Shown piece after piece: positions 10,407 to 62,953 of a stretch of DNA of 64,000 nt. A program made the position numbers and the translations under genes. Below the pieces are notes generated by a model. It saw only the letters and a list, made by a program, of their open reading frames with translations. It searched no databases and was not told where the DNA came from. How positions within the stretch are numbered: the first letter of the stretch is position 1; each line of letters opens with the position of its first letter. Source of the stretch: Thermomicrobiales bacterium (GTDB lineage Bacteria > Chloroflexota > Chloroflexia > Thermomicrobiales > CADCWN01); contig JAUJMV010000016.1 in NCBI GenBank assembly GCA_030446685.1, positions 1 through 64,000 on the forward strand, in the 5' to 3' direction.

Positions 10407-10425
10407 ACACAAGGAGGTGGCGGGC

Positions 10426-11773: not shown

Positions 11774-11924
11774 CAGCCCTCCCAGACCCCCGACCTCAGG
11801 GGAAGGGGCACCGGGAGGGCCGCCCGTGCTCGCGATAAGCGGAGGGCGTTCGCGGACTGGGGTGGGCGGCGGTCGGGCCGGGGCGTCATCCTCTGGTCCC
11901 TCCCGCCGCACAGCCCCGTCGGCA

Positions 11925-13820: not shown

Positions 13821-13882
13821 AGGCCCGGACGCCGGCCCCGCCGGGTGGCAGTCTCCCGGCCGCGATGGTACCGTAGGAGTCG

Positions 13883-15758: not shown

Positions 15759-15766
15759 CACGGCCC

Positions 15767-15933
15767 GGCGGCTGAAGCCGCGGCTGGGGCCTGCGGGCCG
15801 CGAAGCCTCCCTACGGAGGCTGGGACCGGGATACAGTTTCAGACTTCCCCGATAAGCACTCACCGTGGATCGGTCCCAGCCCGCGCAGGCGGGCTTCGTG
15901 GCCTGCAGGCCGATAGGCGCGGCTTCAGCCGCC
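15767..15933. repeat. Interspersed palindromic repeat, copy A
   Basis: Outer arms ggcggctgaagccgcggctgg / ggcgcggcttcagccgcc; inner modules gaagcctccctacggaggctgggacc and ggtcccagcccgcgcaggcgggcttcgtggcc. Confidence 0.75.
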
Positions 15934-16150
15934 AGCCCCCTTCGCCACGGCTCCACTCTTCCGCCCCCCTGTCCGATCCGCCAGGCCAGCCGTTGCCGGA
16001 CTCGCGCGGCCGACCTGTCCGCGCGTCCGATGGCGCGCGGCGACGGCCGGCGCATACTCGATAGGAGACAACGCAACTCGTGCCAGGCCCGGAAGACCGG
16101 CCGAGTTGCCACGACTGAACTGCTATCCATTCGAGAGGAGGACGGACACG

Positions 16151-16870: not shown

Positions 16871-16940
16871 CGCTCTCAGGCCCAGCGGTCGCGCCTGGGC
16901 CGCCGCGCGCCACCGCGGGAGACACGGAAGGAGCAGCGAC

Positions 16941-17378
16941 ATGGCCGACGAACTTCTCGCCGCCGTCGAGCGCGAGGTGCTGGGCTGGCCCGGCGTCACC
17001 AGGACCCTGGCGCGGGGTGGCCCGGTCGAGGGCGGGTGGGTGATTCCGCCCGCCACCGTCTACAACCTCGGCCGGCGGCATCTCGGCCACATCCACGAAG
17101 GCGGCGTGGCCGACATCACCTTCCCCCGGGCGATCTGCGACGAACTGGTCGCGTCCGGGCGGGCCGAGCCGCACGGGGGCGGCTTACCGGGCGTCGTGAG
17201 CTATCGGCTCCGCGCCCCCGAAGACGTGCCGGGCGCCGTCGCGCTCTTCCGCCTGAGCTACGACCGCGCGCGGGCGTCCGCCGAGCGCCGCGGCACGGGC
17301 CCGGCGGGCGGAGCGCGCGCCCCGGAGGCCGCGCCGACACCCTGCCGCGATGCGGAACTGCACGAGGAGCTGTCATGA
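16941..17378 (+). CDS. DUF5519/luciferase-like family protein (copy 1)
   Basis: 145 aa; YNLGRRHLGHIHEGGVADITFPRAICDELVASGRAEPH. Confidence 0.7.
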   Translation: MADELLAAVEREVLGWPGVTRTLARGGPVEGGWVIPPATVYNLGRRHLGHIHEGGVADITFPRAICDELVASGRAEPHGGGLPGVVSYRLRAPEDVPGAVALFRLSYDRARASAERRGTGPAGGARAPEAAPTPCRDAELHEELS

Positions 17379-18490
17379 CCGCGATCCTGGACGATCCCAT
17401 CCCGCGCGCGACCAAGCACGCGACAGTGGGCCTCGGCCCGCTCGACTTCGAGCTGCCGCCGGACCTGGAGGCGGGCGAGCCGCCGGAGGCGCGCGGCCTG
17501 GCCCGCGACGCGGTGCGGCTGCTGGTCTCCCGGCGGTCCACCGACCGCGTCACCCACGCCCGGTTCCGCGACCTCGACCGCTTCCTCGCGCCCGGCGACC
17601 TCCTGGTGCTCAACACCAGCGGCACCCTCAACGCCGCCCTCCACGCCACCCGCGCGGACGGCGCCCCGCTCGAACTGCACCTCTCCACCCGGCTGCCGGC
17701 CGACCTCTGGTCCGTCGAGGTCCGCCGGCCGGGCGCCGGCGGCACGCAGCCATTCCGCCACGCTACGGGCGGCGAGACGCTGCGCCTCCCGGCGGGTGGG
17801 GCCGCGACCCTCCACACGCCCTACCGCCCGGACGAGCGGGCCGCGCCGGGGGTCGGCACACGGCTCTGGATCGCCACGCTGGACCTACCGGAATCGCTCG
17901 ACGACTACTTGAACCGCCACGGCTCCCCGATCCGCTACGGCTACGTCAAGGAGTCCTGGCCGCTCGCCTACTACCAGACCGTCTACGCCACCGAGGCGGG
18001 CAGCGCCGAGATGCCCTCCGCCGGCCGCGCCTTCACCCCGGAACTCCTGACCCGGCTGGTCGCGCGCGGCGTGGGGGTCGCGCCGCTGCTCCTGCACACC
18101 GGCGTCGCCAGCCTGGAGGATCACGAGCCCCCCTACGAAGAACCCTACCGCGTGCCGCTCGCCACGGCGCGGCTGGTCAACGCGACGCGGGCCGGCGGCG
18201 GGCGCGTCGTGGCGGTCGGCACGACGGTCGTGCGGGCGCTGGAGACCGTCACCGACGCGGCGGGGACGGCGCACCCCGGCGCGGGCTGGACCGGGCTCGT
18301 CATCACCCCGGAGCGCGGCCTGCGCGCGGTCGACGCGCTGCTGACCGGGCTGCACGAGCCGCGCGCCTCCCACCTGGCGATGCTCGAAGCCCTCGCCGGG
18401 CGCGACCACCTCCGCACCGTCTACGACGCCGCCCTGCGCGAACGCTACCTCTGGCACGAGTTCGGCGACCTCCACCTGCTCCTGCCGTAG
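17375..18490 (+). CDS. queA: S-adenosylmethionine:tRNA ribosyltransferase-isomerase-like (QueA family, copy 1)
   Basis: FRDLDRFLAPGDLLVLNTSGTLNAAL, HGSPIRYGYVKESWPLAYYQTVYATEAGSAEMPSAGRAFTPELL, LHEPRASHLAMLEALAG. Confidence 0.88.
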   Translation: MTAILDDPIPRATKHATVGLGPLDFELPPDLEAGEPPEARGLARDAVRLLVSRRSTDRVTHARFRDLDRFLAPGDLLVLNTSGTLNAALHATRADGAPLELHLSTRLPADLWSVEVRRPGAGGTQPFRHATGGETLRLPAGGAATLHTPYRPDERAAPGVGTRLWIATLDLPESLDDYLNRHGSPIRYGYVKESWPLAYYQTVYATEAGSAEMPSAGRAFTPELLTRLVARGVGVAPLLLHTGVASLEDHEPPYEEPYRVPLATARLVNATRAGGGRVVAVGTTVVRALETVTDAAGTAHPGAGWTGLVITPERGLRAVDALLTGLHEPRASHLAMLEALAGRDHLRTVYDAALRERYLWHEFGDLHLLLP

Positions 18491-18524
18491 CGACGCGCCA
18501 TGAATCCGCCCGGGGAGATGATGC

Positions 18525-18953
18525 ATGCAAATCACCAGCCTCCACCACAGCGCACTCGTCACCGCCGACCTCGCCCGCCTCCGCAACTTTTATGTCGAGA
18601 TCCTCGGCTTCCGCCCGATCGGCGGCTTCGCGGATCACAACATCCTCTTCCTCGCCGCCGGCGACCTGACGATCGAGATCGAGCAAGTGCAGGAAGTCGG
18701 CGGGCCGGCGCGCGGGCGCGGCTGGCACCACCTGGCGCTGGAAGTCGAGGATCTCGACGCGGCCTACGCCGAACTGACGGCGCGGGGCGTCCCGTTCCAG
18801 GCTCCACCCGCCGGCTTCCCCGCGGACGCGCCGCTGCTGCGGATCGCCTTCCTCACCGACCCCGACGGCAACCTGCTCGAACTGGTCCAGCCGCTCGGGC
18901 GCCGCTACCCACTCCTGCCACCCGCGATGGCCGCACCGGGCCCGCAACCCTGA
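18525..18953 (+). CDS. VOC (glyoxalase) family protein (copy 1)
   Basis: 142 aa; LHHSALVTADLARLRNFYVEILGFRPI...FLTDPDGNLLELVQP. Confidence 0.88.
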   Translation: MQITSLHHSALVTADLARLRNFYVEILGFRPIGGFADHNILFLAAGDLTIEIEQVQEVGGPARGRGWHHLALEVEDLDAAYAELTARGVPFQAPPAGFPADAPLLRIAFLTDPDGNLLELVQPLGRRYPLLPPAMAAPGPQP

Positions 18954-19200
18954 CGGCCCGCCCGTGGTACGTTTCTTCCGGCTCGGCGGTCATGCGCGAA
19001 GTGCTTCGGTGTCTCAGAAGGAATATCATGGAGTGGGGCATGGAGGGTGACCTGTGGCGGAGCCGGATCGACCCCCTCGGCCTGGACGAACTGCTCGCCG
19101 CGGCAGCGCCCGACGCCCCCGGCACATAGCGCAGCCGGCCGCCGCCCCCAGCCGGCCCCGCGCCGCCGGCCTCGACCACGCGCCGCGAGAGGAGGAGCGA

Positions 19201-20045
19201 TGCCCGCGTTTATCTGCGTCACCTGCGGCACCCAGTTCGCCCCCACCCCCGCCCCGCCCGCGCGCTGCCCGGTCTGCGAAGACGAGCGGCAATACGTCGG
19301 CCACGGGGGGCAGCAGTGGACGACCCCCGAGGAATTGCGCCGGGATCACCGCGCTGTCGTCAGGCCGATCGAGCCGGGCTTGACCGGCATCGGGGTGGAG
19401 CCGTCGTTCGCCATCGGGCAACGGGCGCTCCTCGTCCAGGCGCCGGGCGGCAACGTCCTCTGGGATTGCGTCAGCCTCCTCGACGACCCGACCGTCGCGG
19501 CGGTGCGCGCGCTCGGCGGGATCGCCGCCATCGCCATCTCCCATCCCCACTACTACGGGGCGATGGTCGAGTGGGCGCAGGCCTTCGACGCGCCGATCTT
19601 CCTGCACGAGGCCGAGCGCCCCTGGGTGCTGCGTCCCGACCCCCTCGTGCGGTTCTGGGACGGCGAGACGCGCGTGCTCGGCGCGGGGCTGACCCTGATC
19701 CGCTGCGGCGGGCACTTCCCCGGCGGGCAGGTCCTCCACTGGGCGGCGGGGGCCGCGGGGCGGGGGGCGCTGCTCACCGGCGACATCATCACCGTCGTCG
19801 CCGACCGCCGCCGGGTCAGCTTCATGTACAGCTACCCGAATCTGCTCCCGCTCCCCGCCGCGGCGGTGCGGCGGATCGCCGCGGCGGTCGCCCCCTTCCC
19901 CTTCGACCGCCTCTACGGCGCCTGGTGGGACCGCGTCGTGCCGGCCGACGGGGCGGGCGTCGTCCGCCGCTCCGCCGAGCGGTATGTCGCCATCCTGGGC
20001 GCGGACACGCCCCCCACGCCGTCCCCCGCGCCGGCCAACCCCTGA
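19201..20045 (+). CDS. MBL-fold metallo-hydrolase with N-terminal zinc-ribbon (copy 1)
   Basis: CVTCGTQFAPTPAPPARCPVCEDERQYV then MBL-like body ISHPHYYGAMVEWAQ...GGHFPGGQVLHW...LLTGDI. Confidence 0.8.
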
Positions 20046-20166
20046 TCGACACGCCCGAAACCGGGCGACGGCGGACCACCACCGCCGCGCCGCGTGCGGG
20101 ACCCGATCTGCTCTCCTCCACGGAGGGAGACCCGGCACGGTTTCGCGGATCGGAGGCGGGAACGGG

Positions 20167-21087
20167 GTGGCGAGCGGCTTGGACACCCGGCAAGTGCTGG
20201 AGTTGGTCTCCGCCGTCCTCGGCGCGGAACCGCTGGGGGCCGCGCACCTGCCCTTCGGCCACAGCAGCGTCAGCTACGACGTGGCGCTGCCGGGGCGGAA
20301 CGTGATCGTGCGCACCAACGCGCGGCCGGAGGTCTTCGCCAGGACCGGGCACAACCTCGCGATCCTCGCCGGGCTGGGGCTGCCGGTGCCGCGCCTGCTC
20401 GCCGCGGACCTGACCAAGTCGCGCTACCCCGCCGCCTACCTGATCCTCGACAAGATCCCGGGGCGCGACCTGCGCTACGAGCTCGCCGGCATGACCGCCG
20501 CGCAGATGACGCGGCTCGCCGGGTGGATCGTCGCCTTCCAGCGCCGCGTGGCGACCCTGCCGCCCGGCGCCGCCTTCGGCTGGGCGCCGATCGGCGGACG
20601 CGGCCCGTTCCCCTCCTGGGAGGGGCTGATCCGATCCGAGCTGCGCGGCCGCGCGGGCAGGCCCCAAGAGGCCGCCATCGCCGACCTGACCGCGCGCCTC
20701 GAACGGGCGCTGCCCCGGTTCGCGCCCCATTTCGCGGGGGTGCGGCCGGGGTGCTTCCTCGACGACGTGACGATCAAGAACGTGATCGTGCAGGCGGGCG
20801 AGCTTCAGGGGCTGATCGATTTCGACTGCGTCTGCTACGGCGACCCCCTGTACACGGTCGGCCTCACCGCAGCGGGCGTGGTCAGCGATGTCGGGCTGCA
20901 CGAACTGTTCTATGTCGAGGAACTGTGCCGCTGCTGGGGCCTGGACGGCCGGCATCGGCAGATCGTCGCCCTCTACTCGGCGCTGCATGCCCTCAACTTC
21001 CTGCGCCAGTTCACCGCCGGCGAGACCGCGGAGTGGACGCAGCGGATGGTCGAGGCTGCCCGGCAATGGCTGGCGCCGCTGGAGTAA
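20167..21087 (+). CDS. Aminoglycoside phosphotransferase (APH) family protein (copy 1)
   Basis: GHSSVSYDVALPGRNVIVRTN...GLPVPRLLAADL...LQGLIDFDCVCYGDPLYTVG. Confidence 0.85.
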   Translation: MASGLDTRQVLELVSAVLGAEPLGAAHLPFGHSSVSYDVALPGRNVIVRTNARPEVFARTGHNLAILAGLGLPVPRLLAADLTKSRYPAAYLILDKIPGRDLRYELAGMTAAQMTRLAGWIVAFQRRVATLPPGAAFGWAPIGGRGPFPSWEGLIRSELRGRAGRPQEAAIADLTARLERALPRFAPHFAGVRPGCFLDDVTIKNVIVQAGELQGLIDFDCVCYGDPLYTVGLTAAGVVSDVGLHELFYVEELCRCWGLDGRHRQIVALYSALHALNFLRQFTAGETAEWTQRMVEAARQWLAPLE

Positions 21088-21119
21088 CCCTTATCCTCCC
21101 CGGCGCGCCGACACCCCCG

Positions 21120-21231
21120 CCCTGTCATCCTGAGCGCAGCGAAGGATCGGTATCCCTGGCACCGGATGATGTCGTCCGCCACACGGGTGCCAGCGAAACC
21201 GATCCTTCGCTGCGGCTCAGGATGACAGGGC
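21120..21231. repeat. CHPERSEGS-type palindromic repeat (copy 1)
   Basis: cctgtcatcctgagcgcagcgaaggatcggt ... accgatccttcgctgcggctcaggatgacagg; inner arms ctggcacc / gggtgccag. Confidence 0.85.
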
Positions 21232-21359
21232 AGGGGTCTGCGCCTGCCTGGGAGATACGGGCTGGTTTCGGCCGTCCACCGCGCCCTTTCCATTACTGCC
21301 GGCCGCCCGCGGAACGGATTGGCGGGGAGCGATGACCGGCGCTCGGGGAAGATGGGCGG

Positions 21360-22298
21360 CTACGGGCGCTGCCCGATCACTTGCTGGAACCGCTCGCAGG
21401 CCCGGCCCCAGGCGTCGGGGTCCGCGGGATGATAGGTCGCCGGCGGGAACGAGGCCGCGACCAGCCGCCGGCCCTCCCCCAGATCGGCGAGCTGGCCGAG
21501 GGCGAGCAGTTGCAGCAGCAGGTTGCCGATCGCCGTCGCCTCCTCCGGCCCGGCCCAGACCGGGCGGCCGAGCGCGTCCGCCGTCCACTGGCAGAGCAGC
21601 CCGTTCCGCGCGCCGCCGCCGACCAGGTGCAGCCCCGCGAAGCGCGTCCCGACCAGCCCCTCGATCCGCTCCAGCACCGCGCGATGCTTGAGCGCCAGGC
21701 TCTCGAGCGCGCAGCGCAGCACCGCGCCGTCGTCCCCCGGCGCCGGCTGGCCGGTGCGGCGGCAGAACTCGCGGATCGCGCGCGGCATGTCCGGCGGGTT
21801 GACGAACGCCGGGTCGTCGGGGTCGATGGCCGCGGCGAAGGGGGGCGCGGCGGCGGCGAGCGCCAGGTCGTCCTCGTGCGAACGGGACTGCCCGTCGCGC
21901 GCCCAGGCGCGGCGGCACTCCTGCACGATCCAGAGGCCGGTCATGTTCTTCAGCAGCCGGAAGGTCCCGCCCGCGCCGATCTCGTTGGTCACGTTCTCCG
22001 CCAGCGCCCGCTCCGTGATCACCGGCGCGGCGACCTCGGTCCCGACCAGCGACCAGGTGCCGCAGCTCAGGTAGGCGAACGGCCGGTCGGCGGCGGGGGC
22101 CGGCCCCGCCCCCCCCGCCGGGGCGGGGGCGGGGGCCGCGCCCCCGGCGCCCCGGGCCGCGGCCCGCCCCGGCTCCACGCGCACCGCCGGGAGGCTCGCG
22201 CCGGCCGGCGTCCCCCGCGCGCCCCCCCGGACGTCCAGGGCGCCGGGCCACCCCCCCCCCCCGCGCCGGTCGCGGGCCCCGTCAATCGTGAACGGGCT
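21360..22298 (-). pseudogene. 3' fragment of rhamnulokinase, cut at the repeat border (copy 1)
   Basis: FAYLSCGTWSLVGTE...GGGARNGLLCQWTADALGRPV; lacks the N-terminal half present next to copy 2. Confidence 0.85.
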
Positions 22299-23187: not shown

Positions 23188-23498
23188 AGCATCCCCCCAC
23201 GGCCGCGATAATGCCGGAACTGCTCAAGGACATCAGGTAATGGGGCACCCACTCGATGGTACGCTATGGACGCGCTGACAGCCACAAAATACAAGATGCT
23301 CTAGCACAATAATCCCCTGTCCGATCCGCCAGGCCAGCCGTTGCCGGACTCGCGCGGCCGACCTGTCCGCGCGTCCGATGGCGCGCGGCGACGGCCGGCG
23401 CATACTCGATAGGAGACAACGCAACTCGTGCCAGGCCCGGAAGACCGGCCGAGTTGCCACGACTGAACTGCTATCCATTCGAGAGGAGGACGGACACG

Positions 23499-24218
23499 AT
23501 GCGACAGACTGCCCTGATCACCGGCGCCTCGCGCGGCCTCGGGCTGGCCCTGGCCCGCCAACTCGCCGCGGACGGCTGGACCCTCATCCTCGACGCGCGT
23601 GGCGGGGAGGCGCTGGAGGACGCCCGCGCCGAACTCTCCCCGCTGACCGACGCGATCGCCATCCCCGGCGACGTGACCGACCCCGCGCACCGGGCGGCGC
23701 TGGCCGGGGCGGCGCGCCGGGTCGGCGGCCTGGATGCGGTCGTCAACAACGCCAGCATCCTGGGGCCGAGCCCGCAGCCGGCCCTGCTCGACTACCCGCT
23801 CGACACGCTCGAAACCGTCTACCGCACCAACGTGATCGCGCCGCTGGCGCTGCTCCAGGCCGTGCGGCCGTCCCTGAAGCCGGGCGCGCGGATCGTCAAC
23901 GTCACCAGCGACGCGGCGGTGGAGCCCTACGGTGGCTGGGGCGGCTACGGGTCGAGCAAGGCCGCCCTGGAGCAACTCTCGAACATCCTCGCCGCCGAGC
24001 GGCCCGACCTCCGCGTCTACTGGGTCGATCCGGGCGACATGCGCACCCGGATGCACCAGGAAGCCTTCCCCGGCGAGGACATCAGCGACCGCCCGCTGCC
24101 CGAGACGAGCGTGCCCGGCTTCGTCGCGCTGCTGACCGGCGACCACCCCAGCGGGCGCTACGCCGCCCGCGCCCTGGCCCCCGAGCGCGCGGAACCGGTC
24201 GCCACGGCGGCGCGGTAA
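23499..24218 (+). CDS. SDR family oxidoreductase (copy 2)
   Basis: Same translation as 16151..16870. Confidence 0.92.
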   Translation: MRQTALITGASRGLGLALARQLAADGWTLILDARGGEALEDARAELSPLTDAIAIPGDVTDPAHRAALAGAARRVGGLDAVVNNASILGPSPQPALLDYPLDTLETVYRTNVIAPLALLQAVRPSLKPGARIVNVTSDAAVEPYGGWGGYGSSKAALEQLSNILAAERPDLRVYWVDPGDMRTRMHQEAFPGEDISDRPLPETSVPGFVALLTGDHPSGRYAARALAPERAEPVATAAR

Positions 24219-24288
24219 CGCTCTCAGGCCCAGCGGTCGCGCCTGGGCCGCCGCGCGCCACCGCGGGAGACACGGAAGGAGCAGCGAC

Positions 24289-24726
24289 ATGGCCGACGAA
24301 CTTCTCGCCGCCGTCGAGCGCGAGGTGCTGGGCTGGCCCGGCGTCACCAGGACCCTGGCGCGGGGTGGCCCGGTCGAGGGCGGGTGGGTGATTCCGCCCG
24401 CCACCGTCTACAACCTCGGCCGGCGGCATCTCGGCCACATCCACGAAGGCGGCGTGGCCGACATCACCTTCCCCCGGGCGATCTGCGACGAACTGGTCGC
24501 GTCCGGGCGGGCCGAGCCGCACGGGGGCGGCTTACCGGGCGTCGTGAGCTATCGGCTCCGCGCCCCCGAAGACGTGCCGGGCGCCGTCGCGCTCTTCCGC
24601 CTGAGCTACGACCGCGCGCGGGCGTCCGCCGAGCGCCGCGGCACGGGCCCGGCGGGCGGAGCGCGCGCCCCGGAGGCCGCGCCGACACCCTGCCGCGATG
24701 CGGAACTGCACGAGGAGCTGTCATGA
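24289..24726 (+). CDS. DUF5519/luciferase-like family protein (copy 2)
   Basis: Same translation as 16941..17378. Confidence 0.7.
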   Translation: MADELLAAVEREVLGWPGVTRTLARGGPVEGGWVIPPATVYNLGRRHLGHIHEGGVADITFPRAICDELVASGRAEPHGGGLPGVVSYRLRAPEDVPGAVALFRLSYDRARASAERRGTGPAGGARAPEAAPTPCRDAELHEELS

Positions 24727-25838
24727 CCGCGATCCTGGACGATCCCATCCCGCGCGCGACCAAGCACGCGACAGTGGGCCTCGGCCCGCTCGACTTCGAG
24801 CTGCCGCCGGACCTGGAGGCGGGCGAGCCGCCGGAGGCGCGCGGCCTGGCCCGCGACGCGGTGCGGCTGCTGGTCTCCCGGCGGTCCACCGACCGCGTCA
24901 CCCACGCCCGGTTCCGCGACCTCGACCGCTTCCTCGCGCCCGGCGACCTCCTGGTGCTCAACACCAGCGGCACCCTCAACGCCGCCCTCCACGCCACCCG
25001 CGCGGACGGCGCCCCGCTCGAACTGCACCTCTCCACCCGGCTGCCGGCCGACCTCTGGTCCGTCGAGGTCCGCCGGCCGGGCGCCGGCGGCACGCAGCCA
25101 TTCCGCCACGCTACGGGCGGCGAGACGCTGCGCCTCCCGGCGGGTGGGGCCGCGACCCTCCACACGCCCTACCGCCCGGACGAGCGGGCCGCGCCGGGGG
25201 TCGGCACACGGCTCTGGATCGCCACGCTGGACCTACCGGAATCGCTCGACGACTACTTGAACCGCCACGGCTCCCCGATCCGCTACGGCTACGTCAAGGA
25301 GTCCTGGCCGCTCGCCTACTACCAGACCGTCTACGCCACCGAGGCGGGCAGCGCCGAGATGCCCTCCGCCGGCCGCGCCTTCACCCCGGAACTCCTGACC
25401 CGGCTGGTCGCGCGCGGCGTGGGGGTCGCGCCGCTGCTCCTGCACACCGGCGTCGCCAGCCTGGAGGATCACGAGCCCCCCTACGAAGAACCCTACCGCG
25501 TGCCGCTCGCCACGGCGCGGCTGGTCAACGCGACGCGGGCCGGCGGCGGGCGCGTCGTGGCGGTCGGCACGACGGTCGTGCGGGCGCTGGAGACCGTCAC
25601 CGACGCGGCGGGGACGGCGCACCCCGGCGCGGGCTGGACCGGGCTCGTCATCACCCCGGAGCGCGGCCTGCGCGCGGTCGACGCGCTGCTGACCGGGCTG
25701 CACGAGCCGCGCGCCTCCCACCTGGCGATGCTCGAAGCCCTCGCCGGGCGCGACCACCTCCGCACCGTCTACGACGCCGCCCTGCGCGAACGCTACCTCT
25801 GGCACGAGTTCGGCGACCTCCACCTGCTCCTGCCGTAG
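24723..25838 (+). CDS. queA: QueA-like protein (copy 2)
   Basis: Same translation as 17375..18490. Confidence 0.88.
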   Translation: MTAILDDPIPRATKHATVGLGPLDFELPPDLEAGEPPEARGLARDAVRLLVSRRSTDRVTHARFRDLDRFLAPGDLLVLNTSGTLNAALHATRADGAPLELHLSTRLPADLWSVEVRRPGAGGTQPFRHATGGETLRLPAGGAATLHTPYRPDERAAPGVGTRLWIATLDLPESLDDYLNRHGSPIRYGYVKESWPLAYYQTVYATEAGSAEMPSAGRAFTPELLTRLVARGVGVAPLLLHTGVASLEDHEPPYEEPYRVPLATARLVNATRAGGGRVVAVGTTVVRALETVTDAAGTAHPGAGWTGLVITPERGLRAVDALLTGLHEPRASHLAMLEALAGRDHLRTVYDAALRERYLWHEFGDLHLLLP

Positions 25839-25872
25839 CGACGCGCCATGAATCCGCCCGGGGAGATGATGC

Positions 25873-26301
25873 ATGCAAATCACCAGCCTCCACCACAGCG
25901 CACTCGTCACCGCCGACCTCGCCCGCCTCCGCAACTTTTATGTCGAGATCCTCGGCTTCCGCCCGATCGGCGGCTTCGCGGATCACAACATCCTCTTCCT
26001 CGCCGCCGGCGACCTGACGATCGAGATCGAGCAAGTGCAGGAAGTCGGCGGGCCGGCGCGCGGGCGCGGCTGGCACCACCTGGCGCTGGAAGTCGAGGAT
26101 CTCGACGCGGCCTACGCCGAACTGACGGCGCGGGGCGTCCCGTTCCAGGCTCCACCCGCCGGCTTCCCCGCGGACGCGCCGCTGCTGCGGATCGCCTTCC
26201 TCACCGACCCCGACGGCAACCTGCTCGAACTGGTCCAGCCGCTCGGGCGCCGCTACCCACTCCTGCCACCCGCGATGGCCGCACCGGGCCCGCAACCCTG
26301 A
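25873..26301 (+). CDS. VOC family protein (copy 2)
   Basis: Same translation as 18525..18953. Confidence 0.88.
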   Translation: MQITSLHHSALVTADLARLRNFYVEILGFRPIGGFADHNILFLAAGDLTIEIEQVQEVGGPARGRGWHHLALEVEDLDAAYAELTARGVPFQAPPAGFPADAPLLRIAFLTDPDGNLLELVQPLGRRYPLLPPAMAAPGPQP

Positions 26302-26548
26302 CGGCCCGCCCGTGGTACGTTTCTTCCGGCTCGGCGGTCATGCGCGAAGTGCTTCGGTGTCTCAGAAGGAATATCATGGAGTGGGGCATGGAGGGTGACC
26401 TGTGGCGGAGCCGGATCGACCCCCTCGGCCTGGACGAACTGCTCGCCGCGGCAGCGCCCGACGCCCCCGGCACATAGCGCAGCCGGCCGCCGCCCCCAGC
26501 CGGCCCCGCGCCGCCGGCCTCGACCACGCGCCGCGAGAGGAGGAGCGA

Positions 26549-27393
26549 TGCCCGCGTTTATCTGCGTCACCTGCGGCACCCAGTTCGCCCCCACCCCCGC
26601 CCCGCCCGCGCGCTGCCCGGTCTGCGAAGACGAGCGGCAATACGTCGGCCACGGGGGGCAGCAGTGGACGACCCCCGAGGAATTGCGCCGGGATCACCGC
26701 GCTGTCGTCAGGCCGATCGAGCCGGGCTTGACCGGCATCGGGGTGGAGCCGTCGTTCGCCATCGGGCAACGGGCGCTCCTCGTCCAGGCGCCGGGCGGCA
26801 ACGTCCTCTGGGATTGCGTCAGCCTCCTCGACGACCCGACCGTCGCGGCGGTGCGCGCGCTCGGCGGGATCGCCGCCATCGCCATCTCCCATCCCCACTA
26901 CTACGGGGCGATGGTCGAGTGGGCGCAGGCCTTCGACGCGCCGATCTTCCTGCACGAGGCCGAGCGCCCCTGGGTGCTGCGTCCCGACCCCCTCGTGCGG
27001 TTCTGGGACGGCGAGACGCGCGTGCTCGGCGCGGGGCTGACCCTGATCCGCTGCGGCGGGCACTTCCCCGGCGGGCAGGTCCTCCACTGGGCGGCGGGGG
27101 CCGCGGGGCGGGGGGCGCTGCTCACCGGCGACATCATCACCGTCGTCGCCGACCGCCGCCGGGTCAGCTTCATGTACAGCTACCCGAATCTGCTCCCGCT
27201 CCCCGCCGCGGCGGTGCGGCGGATCGCCGCGGCGGTCGCCCCCTTCCCCTTCGACCGCCTCTACGGCGCCTGGTGGGACCGCGTCGTGCCGGCCGACGGG
27301 GCGGGCGTCGTCCGCCGCTCCGCCGAGCGGTATGTCGCCATCCTGGGCGCGGACACGCCCCCCACGCCGTCCCCCGCGCCGGCCAACCCCTGA
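26549..27393 (+). CDS. MBL-fold metallo-hydrolase with zinc-ribbon (copy 2)
   Basis: Same translation as 19201..20045. Confidence 0.8.
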
Positions 27394-27514
27394 TCGACAC
27401 GCCCGAAACCGGGCGACGGCGGACCACCACCGCCGCGCCGCGTGCGGGACCCGATCTGCTCTCCTCCACGGAGGGAGACCCGGCACGGTTTCGCGGATCG
27501 GAGGCGGGAACGGG

Positions 27515-28435
27515 GTGGCGAGCGGCTTGGACACCCGGCAAGTGCTGGAGTTGGTCTCCGCCGTCCTCGGCGCGGAACCGCTGGGGGCCGCGCACCTGCC
27601 CTTCGGCCACAGCAGCGTCAGCTACGACGTGGCGCTGCCGGGGCGGAACGTGATCGTGCGCACCAACGCGCGGCCGGAGGTCTTCGCCAGGACCGGGCAC
27701 AACCTCGCGATCCTCGCCGGGCTGGGGCTGCCGGTGCCGCGCCTGCTCGCCGCGGACCTGACCAAGTCGCGCTACCCCGCCGCCTACCTGATCCTCGACA
27801 AGATCCCGGGGCGCGACCTGCGCTACGAGCTCGCCGGCATGACCGCCGCGCAGATGACGCGGCTCGCCGGGTGGATCGTCGCCTTCCAGCGCCGCGTGGC
27901 GACCCTGCCGCCCGGCGCCGCCTTCGGCTGGGCGCCGATCGGCGGACGCGGCCCGTTCCCCTCCTGGGAGGGGCTGATCCGATCCGAGCTGCGCGGCCGC
28001 GCGGGCAGGCCCCAAGAGGCCGCCATCGCCGACCTGACCGCGCGCCTCGAACGGGCGCTGCCCCGGTTCGCGCCCCATTTCGCGGGGGTGCGGCCGGGGT
28101 GCTTCCTCGACGACGTGACGATCAAGAACGTGATCGTGCAGGCGGGCGAGCTTCAGGGGCTGATCGATTTCGACTGCGTCTGCTACGGCGACCCCCTGTA
28201 CACGGTCGGCCTCACCGCAGCGGGCGTGGTCAGCGATGTCGGGCTGCACGAACTGTTCTATGTCGAGGAACTGTGCCGCTGCTGGGGCCTGGACGGCCGG
28301 CATCGGCAGATCGTCGCCCTCTACTCGGCGCTGCATGCCCTCAACTTCCTGCGCCAGTTCACCGCCGGCGAGACCGCGGAGTGGACGCAGCGGATGGTCG
28401 AGGCTGCCCGGCAATGGCTGGCGCCGCTGGAGTAA
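27515..28435 (+). CDS. APH family protein (copy 2)
   Basis: Same translation as 20167..21087. Confidence 0.85.
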   Translation: MASGLDTRQVLELVSAVLGAEPLGAAHLPFGHSSVSYDVALPGRNVIVRTNARPEVFARTGHNLAILAGLGLPVPRLLAADLTKSRYPAAYLILDKIPGRDLRYELAGMTAAQMTRLAGWIVAFQRRVATLPPGAAFGWAPIGGRGPFPSWEGLIRSELRGRAGRPQEAAIADLTARLERALPRFAPHFAGVRPGCFLDDVTIKNVIVQAGELQGLIDFDCVCYGDPLYTVGLTAAGVVSDVGLHELFYVEELCRCWGLDGRHRQIVALYSALHALNFLRQFTAGETAEWTQRMVEAARQWLAPLE

Positions 28436-28467
28436 CCCTTATCCTCCCCGGCGCGCCGACACCCCCG

Positions 28468-28579
28468 CCCTGTCATCCTGAGCGCAGCGAAGGATCGGTA
28501 TCCCTGGCACCGGATGATGTCGTCCGCCACACGGGTGCCAGCGAAACCGATCCTTCGCTGCGGCTCAGGATGACAGGGC
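28468..28579. repeat. CHPERSEGS-type palindromic repeat (copy 2)
   Basis: Offset copy of 21120-21231. Confidence 0.85.
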
Positions 28580-28707
28580 AGGGGTCTGCGCCTGCCTGGG
28601 AGATACGGGCTGGTTTCGGCCGTCCACCGCGCCCTTTCCATTACTGCCGGCCGCCCGCGGAACGGATTGGCGGGGAGCGATGACCGGCGCTCGGGGAAGA
28701 TGGGCGG

Positions 28708-30219
28708 CTACGGGCGCTGCCCGATCACTTGCTGGAACCGCTCGCAGGCCCGGCCCCAGGCGTCGGGGTCCGCGGGATGATAGGTCGCCGGCGGGAACGA
28801 GGCCGCGACCAGCCGCCGGCCCTCCCCCAGATCGGCGAGCTGGCCGAGGGCGAGCAGTTGCAGCAGCAGGTTGCCGATCGCCGTCGCCTCCTCCGGCCCG
28901 GCCCAGACCGGGCGGCCGAGCGCGTCCGCCGTCCACTGGCAGAGCAGCCCGTTCCGCGCGCCGCCGCCGACCAGGTGCAGCCCCGCGAAGCGCGTCCCGA
29001 CCAGCCCCTCGATCCGCTCCAGCACCGCGCGATGCTTGAGCGCCAGGCTCTCGAGCGCGCAGCGCAGCACCGCGCCGTCGTCCCCCGGCGCCGGCTGGCC
29101 GGTGCGGCGGCAGAACTCGCGGATCGCGCGCGGCATGTCCGGCGGGTTGACGAACGCCGGGTCGTCGGGGTCGATGGCCGCGGCGAAGGGGGGCGCGGCG
29201 GCGGCGAGCGCCAGGTCGTCCTCGTGCGAACGGGACTGCCCGTCGCGCGCCCAGGCGCGGCGGCACTCCTGCACGATCCAGAGGCCGGTCATGTTCTTCA
29301 GCAGCCGGAAGGTCCCGCCCGCGCCGATCTCGTTGGTCACGTTCTCCGCCAGCGCCCGCTCCGTGATCACCGGCGCGGCGACCTCGGTCCCGACCAGCGA
29401 CCAGGTGCCGCAGCTCAGGTAGGCGAACGGCCGGTCGGCGGCGGGGGCCGGCCCCGCCCCCCCCGCCGGGGCGGGGGCGGGGGCCGCGCCCCCGGCGCCC
29501 CGGGCCGCGGCCCGCCCCGGCTCCACGCGCACCGCCGGGAGGCTCGCGCCGGCCGGCGTCCCCCGCGCGCCCCCCCGGACGTCCAGGGCGCCGGGCCACC
29601 CCCCCCCCCCGCGCCGGTCGCGGGCCCCGTCAATCGTGAACGGGCTGAAACACTGCGTCGTCGAGGCGTTGGTCCGCTCGCCGTGCCGCTCGCCGGTCAG
29701 GAAGTAGCGCAGCAGATCGGGATCATCAGCAACGACCGGGCCGCGTCGAGCAGGGGCGAATCCGCCGCCTTGAGCGCGTGGAGCTGGTAGAGGGTATTGA
29801 AGGGCAGCATCTGGATGCCGGTGCGCGCGAAGACCTCCGCGCGCGGCGCCACCGCCCAGACCCGCTCCATCGCCCCGGCGGTGTGCGGGTCGCGGTAGTG
29901 GTAGGGGTTGCCGAGCAGTTCCCCGTGCCGCCCCAGCAGCCCGAAGTCCACCGCCCAGGAGTCGAGGCCGACCGAGGCGAGGCCGCCGTAGGCCCGCCGC
30001 GCCGCCGCCAGCCCCCTTGACTTCGTGCAGCAGGCGCAGGATGTCCCAGTGCAGGCGGTCGCGGGCGCGCACCGGATCGTTCGGGAAGCGCCCCACCTCC
30101 TCGACCACGAGCCGCCGGCCCGCCCCGCCGCCCGTCAGCCGCCCCGCGACCGCGCGCCCGCCGCTCGCCCCCAGGTCGAAGGCCAGCGCCGGCGGCGGAC
30201 CCGCGGCGCCGGGGGTCAC
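28708..30219 (-). CDS. rhaB: Rhamnulokinase (FGGY family), several frameshifts
   Basis: PPPALAFDLGASGGRAVAGRL; VDFGLLGRHGELLGNPYHYRD, TGIQMLPFNTLYQLHAL; DLLRYFLTGERHGERTNASTTQ; FAYLSCGTWSLVGTE; GTG start overlaps the rhaI TGA (gtga). Confidence 0.82.
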   Translation of the reverse strand: MTPGAAGPPPALAFDLGASGGRAVAGRLTGGGAGRRLVVEEVGRFPNDPVRARDRLHWDILRLLHEVKGAGGGAAGLRRPRLGRPRLLGGGLRAAGAARGTARQPLPLPRPAHRRGDGAGLGGGAARGGLRAHRHPDAALQYPLPAPRAQGGGFAPARRGPVVADDPDLLRYFLTGERHGERTNASTTQCFSPFTIDGARDRRGGGGWPGALDVRGGARGTPAGASLPAVRVEPGRAAARGAGGAAPAPAPAGGAGPAPAADRPFAYLSCGTWSLVGTEVAAPVITERALAENVTNEIGAGGTFRLLKNMTGLWIVQECRRAWARDGQSRSHEDDLALAAAAPPFAAAIDPDDPAFVNPPDMPRAIREFCRRTGQPAPGDDGAVLRCALESLALKHRAVLERIEGLVGTRFAGLHLVGGGARNGLLCQWTADALGRPVWAGPEEATAIGNLLLQLLALGQLADLGEGRRLVAASFPPATYHPADPDAWGRACERFQQVIGQRP

Positions 30220-31902: not shown

Positions 31903-33223
31903 CTACTCCTCGTAGCACCCGATGATCAGCGACACGTTGTGCCCGCCGAAGCCGATCGAGTTCGACATCGTGTAGCGCAGGTCGGCGCTGGGCGCGGCCC
32001 ACTCTTCTAGTTTGTCCGGCACTTGTAGTCGAGGTCGCACTTGGGGTCGGGGCGCTCGTAGTTGATCGTCGGCGGGATCACGTTGTCGGTCAGCGCCTGG
32101 ACGTAGTCAGGTCGCACTTGGGGTCGGGGTGTTGGTAGTTGTAGACCGCCTCCAGCGCCCCCGGCCGCCCCGAGCAAGTGGCCGGTCATCGACTTGGTCG
32201 AGCCGATCGGCAGGCGGTAGGCATGGTCGCCGAAGGTGGCCTTGATCGCCTGCGTCTCCAGCTCCTCGTTGAGCGGCGTCGAGGTGCCGTGCGCGTTGAG
32301 GTAGTCGATATCCTCCGGGCGCAGGCCGGCGTCGTCGAGCGCGATCCGCATCGCCCGCACCGCCCCTCGCCGCGCGCGGCGCCGGCTGCACGATGTGGTT
32401 GGCGTCGGCGGTGCTGCCGTAGCCCAGCACCTCGCCGTAGATCGTCGCTGCGCGCCCGCGCGTGCTCCAGCTCTTCGAGGATCAGCATCGCCGCGCCCTC
32501 GCCCATCACGAAGCCGTCGCGCTCGGCGTCGAACGGGCGGCTGGCGCGCTTGGTCGTCGTTGCGCGTCGAGAGCGCGGTCATCGCGTTGAAGCCGGCGAT
32601 GCTGATCGGCGTCACCGACGCCTCGGTGCCGCCGGCCACGATCACGTCGGCGGCGCCGCGCCGAATGCTCTCGGCCGCCTCGCCGATCGCGTGGCCGCTG
32701 GTGGCGCAGGCCGACACCGGCGCGAAGTTGGTCCCCTTCGCCCCGAGCGAGATCGACACCTGGCCCGCCGGCATATCAGCGATCATCATCGGGATCAGGA
32801 AGGGGCTGACCCGCTTCGGCCCGCGCTCGTGCAGCGTGGCGATCTGCTGCTCGAGCGTGGCGATGCCGCCGATGCCCGAGCCGACGATCACGCCGACCCG
32901 CTCGGCGTTCTCCGGGCCGATCTCCAGCCGCGCGTGCTCGACCGCGTCGTGCCGCGCGACGACCGCGAACTGGGTCACGCGGTCCATTCGGCGGGCCTCC
33001 TTCGGCCTGATTCGCGCGACGGGTCGAACCCCTTGACCTCGCAGGCGAACTGGGTGGGGAAGCCGCCGCCCCGCGCGTCGAAGAGGGTGATGTAGTCGGC
33101 CCCCGGCACCCCGTCGAGGATGTTGCGCCAGTTCTCCTCCAGCGTCAGCCCCACCGGCGAGACCGCGCCCATCCCGGTCACAACGACCCGCCGCCGACCG
33201 TCCTTGCCGTTCGCTTCCGCCAT
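31903..33223 (-). CDS. fabF: 3-oxoacyl-ACP synthase II, frameshifted with a local echo duplication
   Basis: [111 protein letters not shown]. Confidence 0.88.
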
Positions 33224-36882: not shown

Positions 36883-37939
36883 TGAAGCTGGCAAAGCTAT
36901 GACCTATTCAAGCTTTCTGATAGAGCAGAACGCCAGAAGGGCAACATGATGTTCAATTGGCAATATATGTCACAATATGTGGTAAGGCTTGTATACAGAT
37001 GTAGAGTGGTGGGGCGTGCAGCGTGCCTTTGATCTCCCTTGAAAGTCCTCTTTACTTGCTGAGGAGGCTATATGCGTATCCAGAGCTTTCGCATCGAGCC
37101 TCCCGCAACTTGCGTCTCGCGGAGTGTTCTAATGCGCCAGACTTCATGGTTATCTGTGGGGAACGGGTGCGGTAAGAGTGCAATCCCTCAATGCGTTGAT
37201 GACGGCAAAGAACACGCTGGCAGTTACGGTAGCTTTGAGTTTGATCCGAGAGCAGTTGCCGCTGATGCCGCTGAAGGCGATGGTCTCAATGACGCTTGCT
37301 TACACTGGGAGGCGGAGCGAGGATACGTTAGAGCGCGTTTCGGTCATTTATGCCCAGAAACAGATGAAGTTGTCATAGAGATCCAACCAGGGGGTAATGG
37401 ACGGGTTGTCAGAATATCCTACCAGGGATTTGCTGAGTTCGTTTTCCCGAGCCTACTTGGACCCGGTTTCTTCGATTACATGGATGCATATCGTCAATCA
37501 CCGAAGCAGCAACTGAGTACCTGGGATGCCAACGTCCTCAACGAATCTCAGACCAAGACTACGCCCATGCCGCTGGCCTTCAAGTTCAATACACCAAGCA
37601 ATACTTAGCGGCTATAAGAAAGATGCGCGACCTACAAATCGTTCAGCAGGCGTGGCGTTCCGGAAGGCGGAGGTCGAGGGTTTAGATTCTCTACAAGAAG
37701 TTAGACAATTCTTCGATAGTTTCTTCGCTCCCATGAGGTTTGTGGATGTGAACCTGGACAAATCCCTTTCGAGTTCATCATTTCGACTCCTCGTGGCATG
37801 ATCGATATCGATGATTTGAGCGCGGGCGAAAAGGAAATACTCAATGTCTTCGTACGCTTTCATCAACTCAAACCCAAGGACGCAATTATCCTGTTCGACG
37901 AGGCGGATGCACATTTGCACCCCGATTTGGAGCGTAGGT

Positions 37940-39391
37940 CTGACATCCGGACGTAACTCAGGTGCTGGCCGGGTGCCCGAGCAACGCGGCGAGGCGTGGT
38001 GGGAGCCCGCCGTGTTGGCGGATCTCCTCGGTCAGGAGCGCCTCGGTCGCCAGGTGGTCCAGCAGGCCGCAGCCCGCGCGTGAGCACGAGCTTGCCGGGC
38101 GGGCGGTTGGCCCGCCATTCGCCCCCGCCGAGCCGGGTCAGCAGGCGCACCTCGGCCCTCCAGCGTGACGCCGGGGAAACCGGAAGCCCGCCGCCACCCA
38201 GCCGAGCGCCACCAGCGTGCGCACCGCCGCGAGCGCGAGCACCTGCACGCCTTCCCAGCCGAGGCATTGTTTCCCGATCTTGAAGGCGTCCTCGATGCTC
38301 CAGCGTTGCCGGTACATCCGGAAGATTTCGGTCGCCTCCTCGGCGCTCGTCACCGGCCGGTCGGTGAGGAGCCTGGGAACTCCTCGTGCGCCCCCTCCAA
38401 CCGCACCTCCACCAGCAGACTTGCCGCTCGTGCTGCGCCCCGTCCGGCCGGGTGCGCACCTCCTCCTGATAGGTGACGACGAGCGGCGCGGCGACGACCG
38501 CCGGCACCGGCTGGAACCCCAGGACGGGCCTGCTGCCCCTTGCGCACCACCATCTCGGTCGCGACGCGCGCCAGCGGCTGCAACCGCGGCGCCAGGTCGG
38601 CCAGGTGGACCGGCTGGTCGGCCACCGGGCGCACCAGCCGGTCGCGGTGCTGCACCCGGCCGACCAGGTGGTGCCCCTGCCCCCACCCCGCCGCCCAGAC
38701 GGCGACGTCGTCGAAGCCCGCGTCCATGATGTAGGTGACCTCGGCGGCGAGCAGGGCGAGAGCGCCGCCGCCGCCGACGGAGGCGAGGCGGCCTGCGTCT
38801 CGGCCGACTCGCTCAGGAAGCCGTCCGCCGCGCTGCTGAACAGGCGGTGATACAACAGCCCCCGGCGCGCCCGCCCGACCCCGATGGCGTTGAGGGTTCG
38901 ATAGCCGGGCACCGTCCCCGGCCCAGCCAGGCGCTTGACGCGCTGGAGCGCCTCCATCTCCTGGGCGTGCGGCTTGCGCAGGTCCGACCCGTCCAGCAAC
39001 ACCCAGATGGCGCCCTCGCCGCGCAGTTGCTCGACCCCGCGCGCTTGCAGCCGGCCGATCAGGTGGTCGGCGTCGAGGGTGGAGCGTTTCGTCGTCTCAG
39101 CATGCACCAGCCGCCGCACCCGCCGCTCGCCGTGCGGCGTCGCCGCCAGCACAGGGGAAAAGGCCGCGATGCGGCTGCAACACAGGCTCTCCGCCCCGAT
39201 GATCCGTCTCACCCAGGAGGGTGCGAGTGCGCCGTCCCCGGTCAAGCCCGCGAACTCCCCCAGGTATGCGCCGAACAGGTCCTGCTCCGCCACCGTCAAC
39301 TCCATCGTTCCCCCTCCCCTTCGGAGATCACACCCCGCACCCACCGCGCCGGCCCCGGTTGTACCACACCCCAGTTACGTCCGGATGTCAG
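37940..39391 (-). mobile_element. IS4-family insertion sequence (1,452 bp)
   Basis: Perfect 19-bp TIRs ctgacatccggacgtaact (37940-37958) / agttacgtccggatgtcag (39373-39391); 6-bp TSD GTAGGT at 37934-37939 and 39392-39397. Confidence 0.95.
38130..39305 (-). CDS. IS4-family transposase (frameshifted in this sequence; 3' end approximate)
   Basis: MELTVAEQDLFGAYLGEFAGLTGDG...IWVLLDGSDLRKPHAQEME; YIMDAGFDDVAVWAAG; YRQRWSIEDAFKIGKQCLGWEG matches Y-(2)-R-(3)-E-(6)-K exactly. Confidence 0.88.
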
Positions 39392-40643
39392 GTAGGTACC
39401 TTGACGCGCTACGGGCCATCGGTATGGGTAATCAACTCTGGTTGACCACCCACTCTCCCGAGATGATGATTGCAGCAGGTAGCGAATCTCTGTATACGGT
39501 GCTCAAGGAGCCGCCGGCGGACGGTGGGAGTCAGTTCGTCCGCGTGACTCAGAACGAGCAACTACATACCGTCTTGTCAGAGGTGATGGGTTCGCGAGGG
39601 ATCGTGAGCTTCAATCAACGTGTCGTATTTATTGAAGGGGAAGACGCATCCGCCGACCGGATGATTTATGAGGCGGCGTATCCGCCCGGTTTGTACAACG
39701 TAAGCTTCGTCCCGGCTGGGAATTCCGCAACGGCGAGGAAAACGGCGGAGCGGGTGAACGAGTTGCTCTCGACATCCATAGGCTTCCAGCAGTACTACAG
39801 TATTGTTGATGGAGATATTGACCGTTCGAACCCGATCCAACTGGGGGAGCGCGATTGTTCAAGTTGCCAGTGTACCATGTAGAGAACTTGCTCCTCAATT
39901 CAGGCGAAATTCTTGAAGCAACCCAGGCGCTGCTTGGACCACAATGCCCTTTTAGGACTCCGACCGATGTAGAGAATGCCCTACGAAGATGCGTCCTGTC
40001 AGACCGTCATGTAAAGCCCTTCACAAAAGCCTTGCTCGATGCGCGTCTCGCTGCAATCGCCAAGGCAGCTTACGATGATGTCTACAAGCGGCAGACCCAT
40101 GTAACTTCTGAACTAACGCTGCCTACGTTCACTGAGATGGAGTCGGAGGCCAGGGCTGCCTTGCAAGTTGCGTTGAGCGACGGGACGTGGACGGCGAGGT
40201 GTAAGGGTCGAGATGTGCTTAGGGCGTATTGCAATGAGGTTGGCCTAGCATACGAACATCTTCGTAACCTTCTTATCTCCCGTATAAACACCCCCCCCAA
40301 AGCTCTTGCAGACATCATGGATAGAATCCTTGGCAGCAACTAGCAACGCTGGGGGCTGACGACTCCGTCTATGCTCCCCCATTGCCTCATCGATGATGGT
40401 GCGCATGCTGCCCAGTCCGCAGTGGGGTGTCGCCGGAAGCGAGCGGGGCGGGGGATGGGCAGATAGGATGTCCGGCGAACAGACGTTTCGCGGGGGTTTC
40501 TGCTTATCCCCCACACACGTTGACGCGCGGCGATGGCGGTCCCTATACTTGCCGGACGTCTACGCGACAGTCCGGGCAGGCGACCCCGGCAATTGTGCCG
40601 TCCCGCCGCCCGTCGCCACGCCTGGAAGGGGAAACGGATCGCG

Positions 40644-41849
40644 ATGCACCGCCGCGCCCACGCCCACCGCACCGCCCTGCTAATCGCGGCGCTCGCCAGC
40701 CTCCTCGCCGCCGCCGGCTGCACCCTCCCCGGCGCCCTCGACCCGACCCCCGCGCCGATGCCGACCGCGACCGCGACGCCGGCCCCGACCCCGACGACCG
40801 CCCCGACCCCCACCCCGCAGCCGACCGCGACCCCGCTCCCGCCGACGCCGACCCCGCCCCCCACCCCGACCCCCGCCCCGACCCCCACGCCGGTCCTCGA
40901 CCAGACCCCGCAGCAGATCTACCGCCGCGCCAGCCCGGCGGTGGTGACGGTCGTCAACTACGGGGGCGGCGGGAGCGGCGGGCGGAGCGGGACCGGGTTC
41001 GGCAGCGGGGTGATCATCGACCCGCGCGGCTACATCATCACCAACAACCATGTGGTCGAGGGCCAGCGCCGCCTGCGGGTGATCTTCTCCGACGCCACCG
41101 AGCGCGACGCGAGTCTCGTCGGCGCCGACCCGACGACCGACCTCGCGGTCCTCAAGGTCGAGGGGAGCGTGCCGGGGACGGTCCCGTTCGGCGACTCCTC
41201 GAAGCTGGAGCCGGGCCAGAGCGTCGTCGCGATCGGCAGCGCCCTCGGCGAGTTCACCAACACCGTCACCACCGGGATCGTCAGCGGCCTGCAGCGCGAC
41301 CTCCAGGACCGCGAGCGCGGCGTCTCCCTCGAGGGGCTGATCCAGACCGACGCGGCGATCAACCCCGGCAACTCCGGCGGGCCGCTCCTCAACCTGCGGG
41401 CCGAGGTGATCGGCATCAACACCGCCGTCATCCGCGAGAGCGGCGCCGGCGCCAATGCCAGCGGCAGCGTCGCGGAAGGGATCGGCTTCGCCGTCCCGTC
41501 GAACATCGCCCGCATCGTCAGCGAGCGGATCATCGCCGAGGGGCGGCTCGCCCGGCCGGGCCTCGGCGCGACGACCGAGCCGGTCACGCCGGGCCTCGCC
41601 GCGGAGCAGGAGCTGCAGGTGCAGCAGGGCGCGCGGATCAGGAACGTGGCCCCCGGCGGCCCCGCCGCCGCCGCCGGCCTGCGCCCGAACGACGTGATCG
41701 TCGCCGTCGCCGGCAAGCCGGTCGACCGCGAGAACAGCCTCTCGTTCCTGCTCCTCGCGCACCGGCCGGGCGAGCAGGTCGAGCTGACGATCGCGCGCGG
41801 CCCGGAGCGGCAGACCGTGCGGGTGACGCTCGGGGAGGCGGACCGGTGA
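40644..41849 (+). CDS. S1C-family (HtrA/Deg-like) serine protease lipoprotein with Pro-Thr linker and PDZ
   Basis: Lipobox LLAAAGC; (PT)n linker; ITNNHVVEG, DPTTDLAVLKVEG, QTDAAINPGNSGGPLLNLRAEVIGINTAV; PDZ GLRPNDVIVAVAGKPV. Confidence 0.9.
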   Translation: MHRRAHAHRTALLIAALASLLAAAGCTLPGALDPTPAPMPTATATPAPTPTTAPTPTPQPTATPLPPTPTPPPTPTPAPTPTPVLDQTPQQIYRRASPAVVTVVNYGGGGSGGRSGTGFGSGVIIDPRGYIITNNHVVEGQRRLRVIFSDATERDASLVGADPTTDLAVLKVEGSVPGTVPFGDSSKLEPGQSVVAIGSALGEFTNTVTTGIVSGLQRDLQDRERGVSLEGLIQTDAAINPGNSGGPLLNLRAEVIGINTAVIRESGAGANASGSVAEGIGFAVPSNIARIVSERIIAEGRLARPGLGATTEPVTPGLAAEQELQVQQGARIRNVAPGGPAAAAGLRPNDVIVAVAGKPVDRENSLSFLLLAHRPGEQVELTIARGPERQTVRVTLGEADR

Positions 41850-44588: not shown

Positions 44589-44647
44589 TGTAGTATCATC
44601 CCCCGTGATGGTCGCGACGCGCGGGTGGGCGCGAATGAGGGGGCGGC

Positions 44648-45499
44648 ATGCAGCAGACGCCGACGATCGGGATCATCGCGGCGCGCAACAAACCCCAGGC
44701 CAAGGCGCTCGAACGCGAGATCGCCGCCTGGCTCCAGGCGCGCGGCGTGCCGATGCGGGATGAGGCGACGCTGCTGGAGGGGGACCGCCGGCGTCGCGCT
44801 GATCGCCGTCCTCGGCGGCGACGGGATGATGATGCGCGCCGCGCGGATGTTCCCCGACGTGCCGCTGCTCGGCATCAACTTCGGCCACGTCGGCTTCCTG
44901 ACGATGGTCGAGCGCAACGACTGGCGGCACGCGCTCGAACTGGTCCTCGCCGCCGACTACCGCATCCAGCGCGGCCCGACGCTGCGGGTGGAGTTGGTCC
45001 GCGACGGCCGCCTGGTCGAGTGGGGGCCGGTGATCAACGACGCGGTGATCCGCGCCGGGCCGCAACTGATCGAGGTCGAGGTCTACATCAACGGCCAGTA
45101 CGTCAACATCTACCCCGGCGACGGCATGATCGTCTCCACCCCCAGGGCAGCACCGCCTACTGCATGTCGGCGGGCGGCCCGATCCTCACGCACGGGGTCC
45201 GCGGCTTCGTCGTCGTCCCGCTCAACCCGCACTCCCCGATCCGCATCCCGTTGGTGATCGAGGAGGAGGCGCTGATCGAGCTGGTGATGACGAGCGATAA
45301 GAAGAGCTGGCTCTACCTCGACGGCAACACCAACGACGCGCCCCGGCTCCAGGCCGGCGACGTGGTGCGGGTGCGGCGCGGCGACCACCACTTCTCGCTC
45401 GTCCTGCTGGACAACATGAACTTCTACCACGCGATCCGCAGCCGCTTCAACTTCCTGATCCGCCCCGACGCCGTCCCCTCGCGGCTGCGCCCCCAGTGA
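44648..45499 (+). CDS. nadK: NAD kinase, 2 apparent frameshifts
   Basis: IGIIAARNKPQAKALEREIAAWLQARG; ALIAVLGGDGMMMRAARMFPDVPLLGINFGHVGFLTM; GSTAYCMSAGGPILTHGVRGFVVVPLNPHS. Confidence 0.9.
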   Translation: MQQTPTIGIIAARNKPQAKALEREIAAWLQARGVPMRDEATLLEGDRRRRADRRPRRRRDDDARRADVPRRAAARHQLRPRRLPDDGRAQRLAARARTGPRRRLPHPARPDAAGGVGPRRPPGRVGAGDQRRGDPRRAATDRGRGLHQRPVRQHLPRRRHDRLHPQGSTAYCMSAGGPILTHGVRGFVVVPLNPHSPIRIPLVIEEEALIELVMTSDKKSWLYLDGNTNDAPRLQAGDVVRVRRGDHHFSLVLLDNMNFYHAIRSRFNFLIRPDAVPSRLRPQ

Positions 45500-54990: not shown

Positions 54991-59379
<4,389 letters not shown>

Positions 59380-59397
59380 AGTGTTCCCCCAGTTGTG

Positions 59398-59465
59398 AGT
59401 AGGGAGCCGGGAGTCGGTAGCCAGAGAGCAGACTTGCGTCCACTCCCGACTCCCGACTCCCTACT
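59398..59465. repeat. GACTCCC-repeat hairpin in the rpoB-rpoC intergenic space
   Basis: agtagggagccgggagtcggtag (59398-59420) / cactcccgactcccgactccctact (59440-59465). Confidence 0.8.
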
Positions 59466-59470
59466 CTCTA

Positions 59471-62953
<3,483 letters not shown>

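Follow-up and report, generated by a model that had tools for sequence, protein, structure and literature searches.

A gene encoding an ABC/AAA ATPase followed by a TOPRIM (DUF4435) nuclease was identified at positions 37072-40343, plus strand, of the window, that is, the whole 64-kb stretch of DNA that was analyzed. With a probability of roughly 0.82, it is a compact single-polypeptide PARIS system (fused AriAB) interrupted by an insertion sequence (IS) in a high-GC bacterial genome. The gene is spread over several reading frames and encodes about 606 amino acids when read through, in agreement with the joined polypeptide of about 600 residues proposed in the first-pass annotation. In every intact relative the two halves are encoded as one polypeptide, indicating that both belong to the same gene. 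The features of the locus are as follows:

37072..37939, plus strand: 5' segment of the fused gene, encoding the ABC/AAA ATPase until shortly after Walker B
37159..37182, plus strand: Walker A, GNGCGKSA
37816..37836, plus strand: ABC signature, LSAGEKE
37888..37923, plus strand: Walker B and D-loop, ILFDEADAHLHP
37934..37939, plus strand: target-site duplication GTAGGT, left copy
37940..39391, minus strand: insertion sequence of 1,452 bp with inverted ends and target duplication
39392..39397, plus strand: target-site duplication GTAGGT, right copy
39394..40343, plus strand: 3' segment of the fused gene, encoding the H-loop, the TOPRIM/DUF4435 nuclease and a helical C-terminal region
39448..39462, plus strand: H-loop, THSPE
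39628..39642, plus strand: TOPRIM motif FIEGE with the catalytic glutamate
39805..39822, plus strand: TOPRIM DxD, VDGDID
39873..39896, plus strand: YHVENLLL, also present in canonical fused AriAB as VYHIENYLL
40533-41849: S1C (trypsin-like/PDZ) protease gene, downstream of the fused gene

All of the motifs previously quoted were found in the DNA on the plus strand, and their order is colinear with that in the intact single-ORF homologues L054-L060, L062 and L063. A frameshift-aware alignment to L054 displayed 67% identity over 595 residues without any in-frame stop, which is far beyond chance. Taken separately, the 5' part showed 67% identity to L054 residues 1-289 and matched PADLOC AriAB and Pfam AAA_21, and the 3' part showed 67% identity to residues 289-603 and matched PADLOC AriAB and AriB. 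The Walker A lysine, the Walker B glutamate, the TOPRIM glutamate (the counterpart of AriB E26) and the DxD were kept in the source copy and in all compact relatives. In L054 numbering, the Walker A lysine is K36 and the TOPRIM glutamate is E369. The GC content of the locus is 0.52-0.57 versus 0.72 for the whole window, bearing out the lower GC noted earlier. The flanking genes were also named correctly: the upstream neighbor is a DUF402 gene, recognized through its relative L142, and the S1C protease lies downstream.

The IS at 37940-39391 is framed by a 6-bp target duplication, and its bounds are close to the 37940-39397 given before. Its termini are inverted repeats matching at 19 of 20 bases, and a frame-broken DDE transposase gene runs along the minus strand at about 37961-39110. 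Within the same genome, contig C87 carries a relative of the element with 67% DNA identity, and the transposase of this relative gave a weak DDE_Tnp_1 match. Across the IS the two halves of the gene join in frame, with ...HPDLERR followed by YLDAL..., comparable to HPDLERRYLELL in the intact L054. The insertion site lies between Walker B and the H-loop, therefore neither half would be expected to work as an ATPase. Since the IS parts Walker B from both the H-loop and the nuclease, the copy in the source DNA should be inactive.

Insertions were also detected in two other fused AriAB genes. L061 carries a Mutator-type element at 6696-7999, with a 9-10-bp duplication, just past NQL; a self-splicing intron was considered for this insert and rejected, as it had no Rfam match and encodes a Mutator-type transposase. 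In L125, a canonical fused AriAB from Tianweitania populi, an element with a two-frame transposase is located at about 8363-9681, just past the H-loop. Together with the source copy, these are three unrelated insertions inside about 22 codons of a gene of 600-700 codons. The chance of such clustering under uniform insertion was estimated at about 4 in 1,000 in a comparison made after seeing the data, and the clustering may be due to chance. Repeated IS insertions in fused AriAB genes fit a defence that can be costly to keep.

The gene was assigned to its family by profile searches. The best PADLOC match of the read-through was AriAB (PDLC02981, E = 7e-63, 211 bits), the next family reaching 56 bits, which upheld the fused PARIS-like identity suggested at first. 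The intact relatives scored 240-274 bits for AriAB (L054, E = 7e-76; L062, E = 9e-82) and at most 128 bits for any other family. An ATPase domain was confirmed, with Pfam AAA_21 at 35.7 bits in the read-through (cut-off 27) and AAA_15/AAA_21 at 56-87 bits, over the Pfam cut-offs, in the intact relatives. The result for DUF4435 was mixed: of four intact relatives compared, this domain was over the Pfam cut-off of 27 bits in L054 (32.4) and L062 (38.2), but it reached only 22.8 bits in the source copy, and L056 scored 24.7. It was absent among the Pfam matches listed for L063. AAA_15, AAA_21 and DUF4435 are each over the cut-off in L054 and L062, and these three profiles with the two-domain rule are the criteria used for PARIS in PMC9122126. 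The AriB profile recovered the compact gene in six of six host genomes and gave matches in two of 14 control genomes. A tally of the AriAB family over the class was discarded; it gave matches in nearly all genomes and in 14/14 controls, and is meaningless because these matches come from generic ABC motifs. A DUF5995 match on the read-through fell below its cut-off and was set aside.

The fold was analyzed using AlphaFold models of L054, a relative and not the source copy. The nuclease half (residues 355-603, ten sequences, pLDDT 84) was compared with 350,542 PDB chains and gave only two matches at E < 0.001, both of them AriB in PARIS complexes (8ux9_A and 8v46_D; E = 1.6e-4 and 7.9e-4). Although significant, both matches are loose (TM 0.31-0.42), and no OLD or GajA TOPRIM was present among the 50 matches listed. 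In the comparison with AriA/AriB structures that had been proposed, the nuclease half on its own thus has a predicted fold like that of AriB. Because a sequence search with the compact nuclease half found no AriB chain in the PDB, the relationship to AriB is based on the profile match and the fold. By sequence, the ATPase half was nearer in the PDB to retron and PtuA ATPases than to AriA, and a profile comparison related it to AriA at E = 3.5e-10. The whole-chain model (nine sequences, pLDDT 79) gave a list led by retron Eco8 that also included Septu PtuA, TsOLD and GajA.

Relatives were searched in 85,462 species genomes using a three-sequence alignment as query, and 76 loci were obtained. 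Single-sequence scans of genome contigs and viral contigs detected no relatives, the three-sequence alignment scan of viral contigs detected no loci, and phage records contained no match; plasmid records yielded two distant matches. A protein query against 399 genomes of the phylum matched in only five, the source genome included. Ten of the 76 loci (L054-L063) form the compact group, and in nine of these the gene is one uninterrupted ORF of about 600 aa, so that the short form is present undamaged in other bacteria and in archaea. The ten loci originate from Methanosarcinales (L054), Methanothrix (L055), Deltaproteobacteria (L056), Desulfobacteraceae (L057), Anaerolineales (L058), Planctomycetota (L059 and L061), Riflebacteria (L060), Bacteroidia (L062) and an Asgard archaeon (L063). 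The best-segment identity to the source copy was 47-61% for L054-L061, 37% for L062 and 32% for L063. Another genome of the phylum contained a C-terminal fragment at a contig end (L049, 57% identity), and most other loci were canonical fused AriAB of about 700 aa with about 25% identity.

In the phylogenetic tree the ten compact sequences clustered together, with a support of 88/46 and in 86% of the bootstrap trees, and the source sequence branched inside this cluster, beside the sequences of the two methanogens. Support for a separate group is modest; the branches leading to the outgroup are long, and the deeper branching order is uncertain. We tentatively suggest that the compact AriAB of about 600 aa might represent a separate single-polypeptide PARIS lineage spanning archaea (including Asgard) and several bacterial phyla, whose shorter ABC insertion and covalently attached nuclease would point to a different sensor and to a mode of activation unlike release from an AriA hexamer. 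This lineage may deserve its own subtype.

Of the 12 frame breaks that the alignment to L054 revealed in the fused gene, 11 fall within the first 867 bp and a single one within the last 946 bp, and no nonsense codon was present. Six breaks were counted over 0.67 kb of the upstream DUF402 gene and seven over 1.15 kb of the IS transposase gene, both without stops. Shifts of reading-frame phase were also found within other genes of the window, and the NAD kinase gene at 44625-45499, which is the only one in the genome to exceed the cut-off of its family, is frame-split. Since the neighbors and the transposase break at a similar density without nonsense codons, and since the only clear NAD kinase of the genome is also split, the frameshifts are probably patchy assembly indels and not decay. 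That they form part of the inactivation was not confirmed. A pseudogene that died long ago, with true mutations as frameshifts and the IS as a late event, is unlikely. In its favor, 11 of the 12 breaks lie close together near the 5' end, and rpoB and rpoC (54994-62968) are unbroken across 8 kb, indicating that assembly quality is not poor everywhere. However, the lack of nonsense codons, the retention of all catalytic motifs and the like breakage of DUF402, transposase and NAD kinase argue against it, and a decayed transposase would not be expected in a recently inserted IS whose 6-bp duplication is perfect. A chimaeric assembly of two unrelated genes joined around a repeat is extremely improbable: although the assembly is fragmented (111 contigs) and another contig carries a relative of the IS, nine intact homologues are continuous polypeptides matching both halves, the IS is framed exactly by its duplication and inverted ends, and the gene halves meet in frame.

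Very unlikely, too, is a class 1 OLD-type nuclease, that is, a stand-alone ABC-TOPRIM protein that degrades DNA and is not a PARIS tRNase. The compact gene is single and without a partner, as is class 1 OLD (PMC10568477), and retron Eco8, TsOLD and GajA all appear in the whole-chain fold search. These whole-chain matches are probably led by the shared ABC half, however, whereas the nuclease half alone matched only AriB. The AriAB score is more than 150 bits above every Old and GajA profile, and VYHxEN after the DxD is a motif of fused AriAB. Profile, alignment and fold support membership in the fused AriAB family.

Two further observations concern the window. Many genes between 28700 and 48700 are apparently split by indels, for example a beta-ketoacyl synthase at 32007-32987, and gene calls in this assembly need care. 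An exact direct duplication of 6,333 bp (15966-22298 and 23314-29646, offset 7,348 bp) may have arisen very recently or may be an artefact of the assembly.

No neighboring gene recurred across the ten compact loci, therefore the compact AriAB seems to act alone, as a single-gene system. The neighbors included histidyl-tRNA synthetase and a Schlafen-type gene at L054, topoisomerase VI at L055 and an IS110 element at L057. At L056, the intact gene is followed directly by a type I restriction operon that is complete (HsdM, HsdS, HsdR; 10187-17147). GajB, the UvrD/Rep-like helicase that lies next to GajA in Gabija, was not a conserved neighbor of the compact gene, and HsdR at L056 was the only helicase among the neighbors examined. 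At L058, genes for archease and the RNA ligase RtcB (10126-12018) lie directly downstream of the intact gene; a link between tRNA repair and a predicted tRNase is tempting and was seen at this locus only. Low GC, the very mixed taxonomy of the relatives and the rarity in the phylum make horizontal acquisition of the fused gene plausible, as had been suggested, but an empty site was not found. A DUF402 synteny search yielded the relative contig L142, on which no S1C protease was recognized beside DUF402, and the empty site is therefore not shown.

By analogy with PARIS, the ABC half of the intact form would oligomerize and sense a phage-encoded trigger, which in PARIS is a DNA-mimic anti-restriction protein such as Ocr. 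Sensing would in turn activate the two-metal TOPRIM nuclease fused to it, and this nuclease would cut host tRNA, the substrate being taken from PARIS, so that translation stops and the infected cell aborts infection. Because the fused nuclease cannot be released like free AriB, activation would have to be conformational or take place within the oligomer. Fused PARIS (AriAB) was reported in 2022 (Rousset et al., PMC9122126), and both fused AriAB and the tRNase activity of AriB are already published (PMC9122126, PMC12409363); the novelty is therefore modest. In a review (PMC10568477), two modes of action are considered for fused AriAB without a decision between them, that of two-gene PARIS and that of a class 1 OLD protein. 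Being short and encoded by a single gene, the intact compact homologues lend themselves to direct assays of the trigger and of cleavage of tRNA or DNA.

Among known systems, the OLD nucleases (P2 Old, TsOLD 6p74), GajA and the retron Eco8 effector share with the compact gene an ABC ATPase followed by TOPRIM and a similar whole-chain fold, but their profile scores are far weaker and their TOPRIM half was not among the matches listed for the nuclease-half fold. Two-gene PARIS (AriA and AriB of E. coli B185; PDB 8ux9 and 8v46) has the same AriB-type nuclease fold and, by profile, an AriA-type ATPase, while the compact form is fused, lacks a releasable free AriB and has a nuclease half without sequence-level match to the AriB chains of the PDB. 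Canonical fused AriAB is likewise a loner gene encoding an N-terminal ABC/AAA ATPase and a C-terminal DUF4435/TOPRIM domain in one polypeptide, and the ABC signature, Walker B, H-loop, EG...DxD and VYHxEN motifs are common to both. It differs in length (about 700 versus about 600 aa), in sequence (about 25% identity) and in its motifs, displaying DEPELHLNP and THSD where the compact form has DEADAHLHP and THSPE. The distance from Walker A to the signature is 216-225 residues in the compact form (244 in L062) and 275-287 in canonical fused AriAB, and the ABC insertion of the compact form is about 65 residues shorter.
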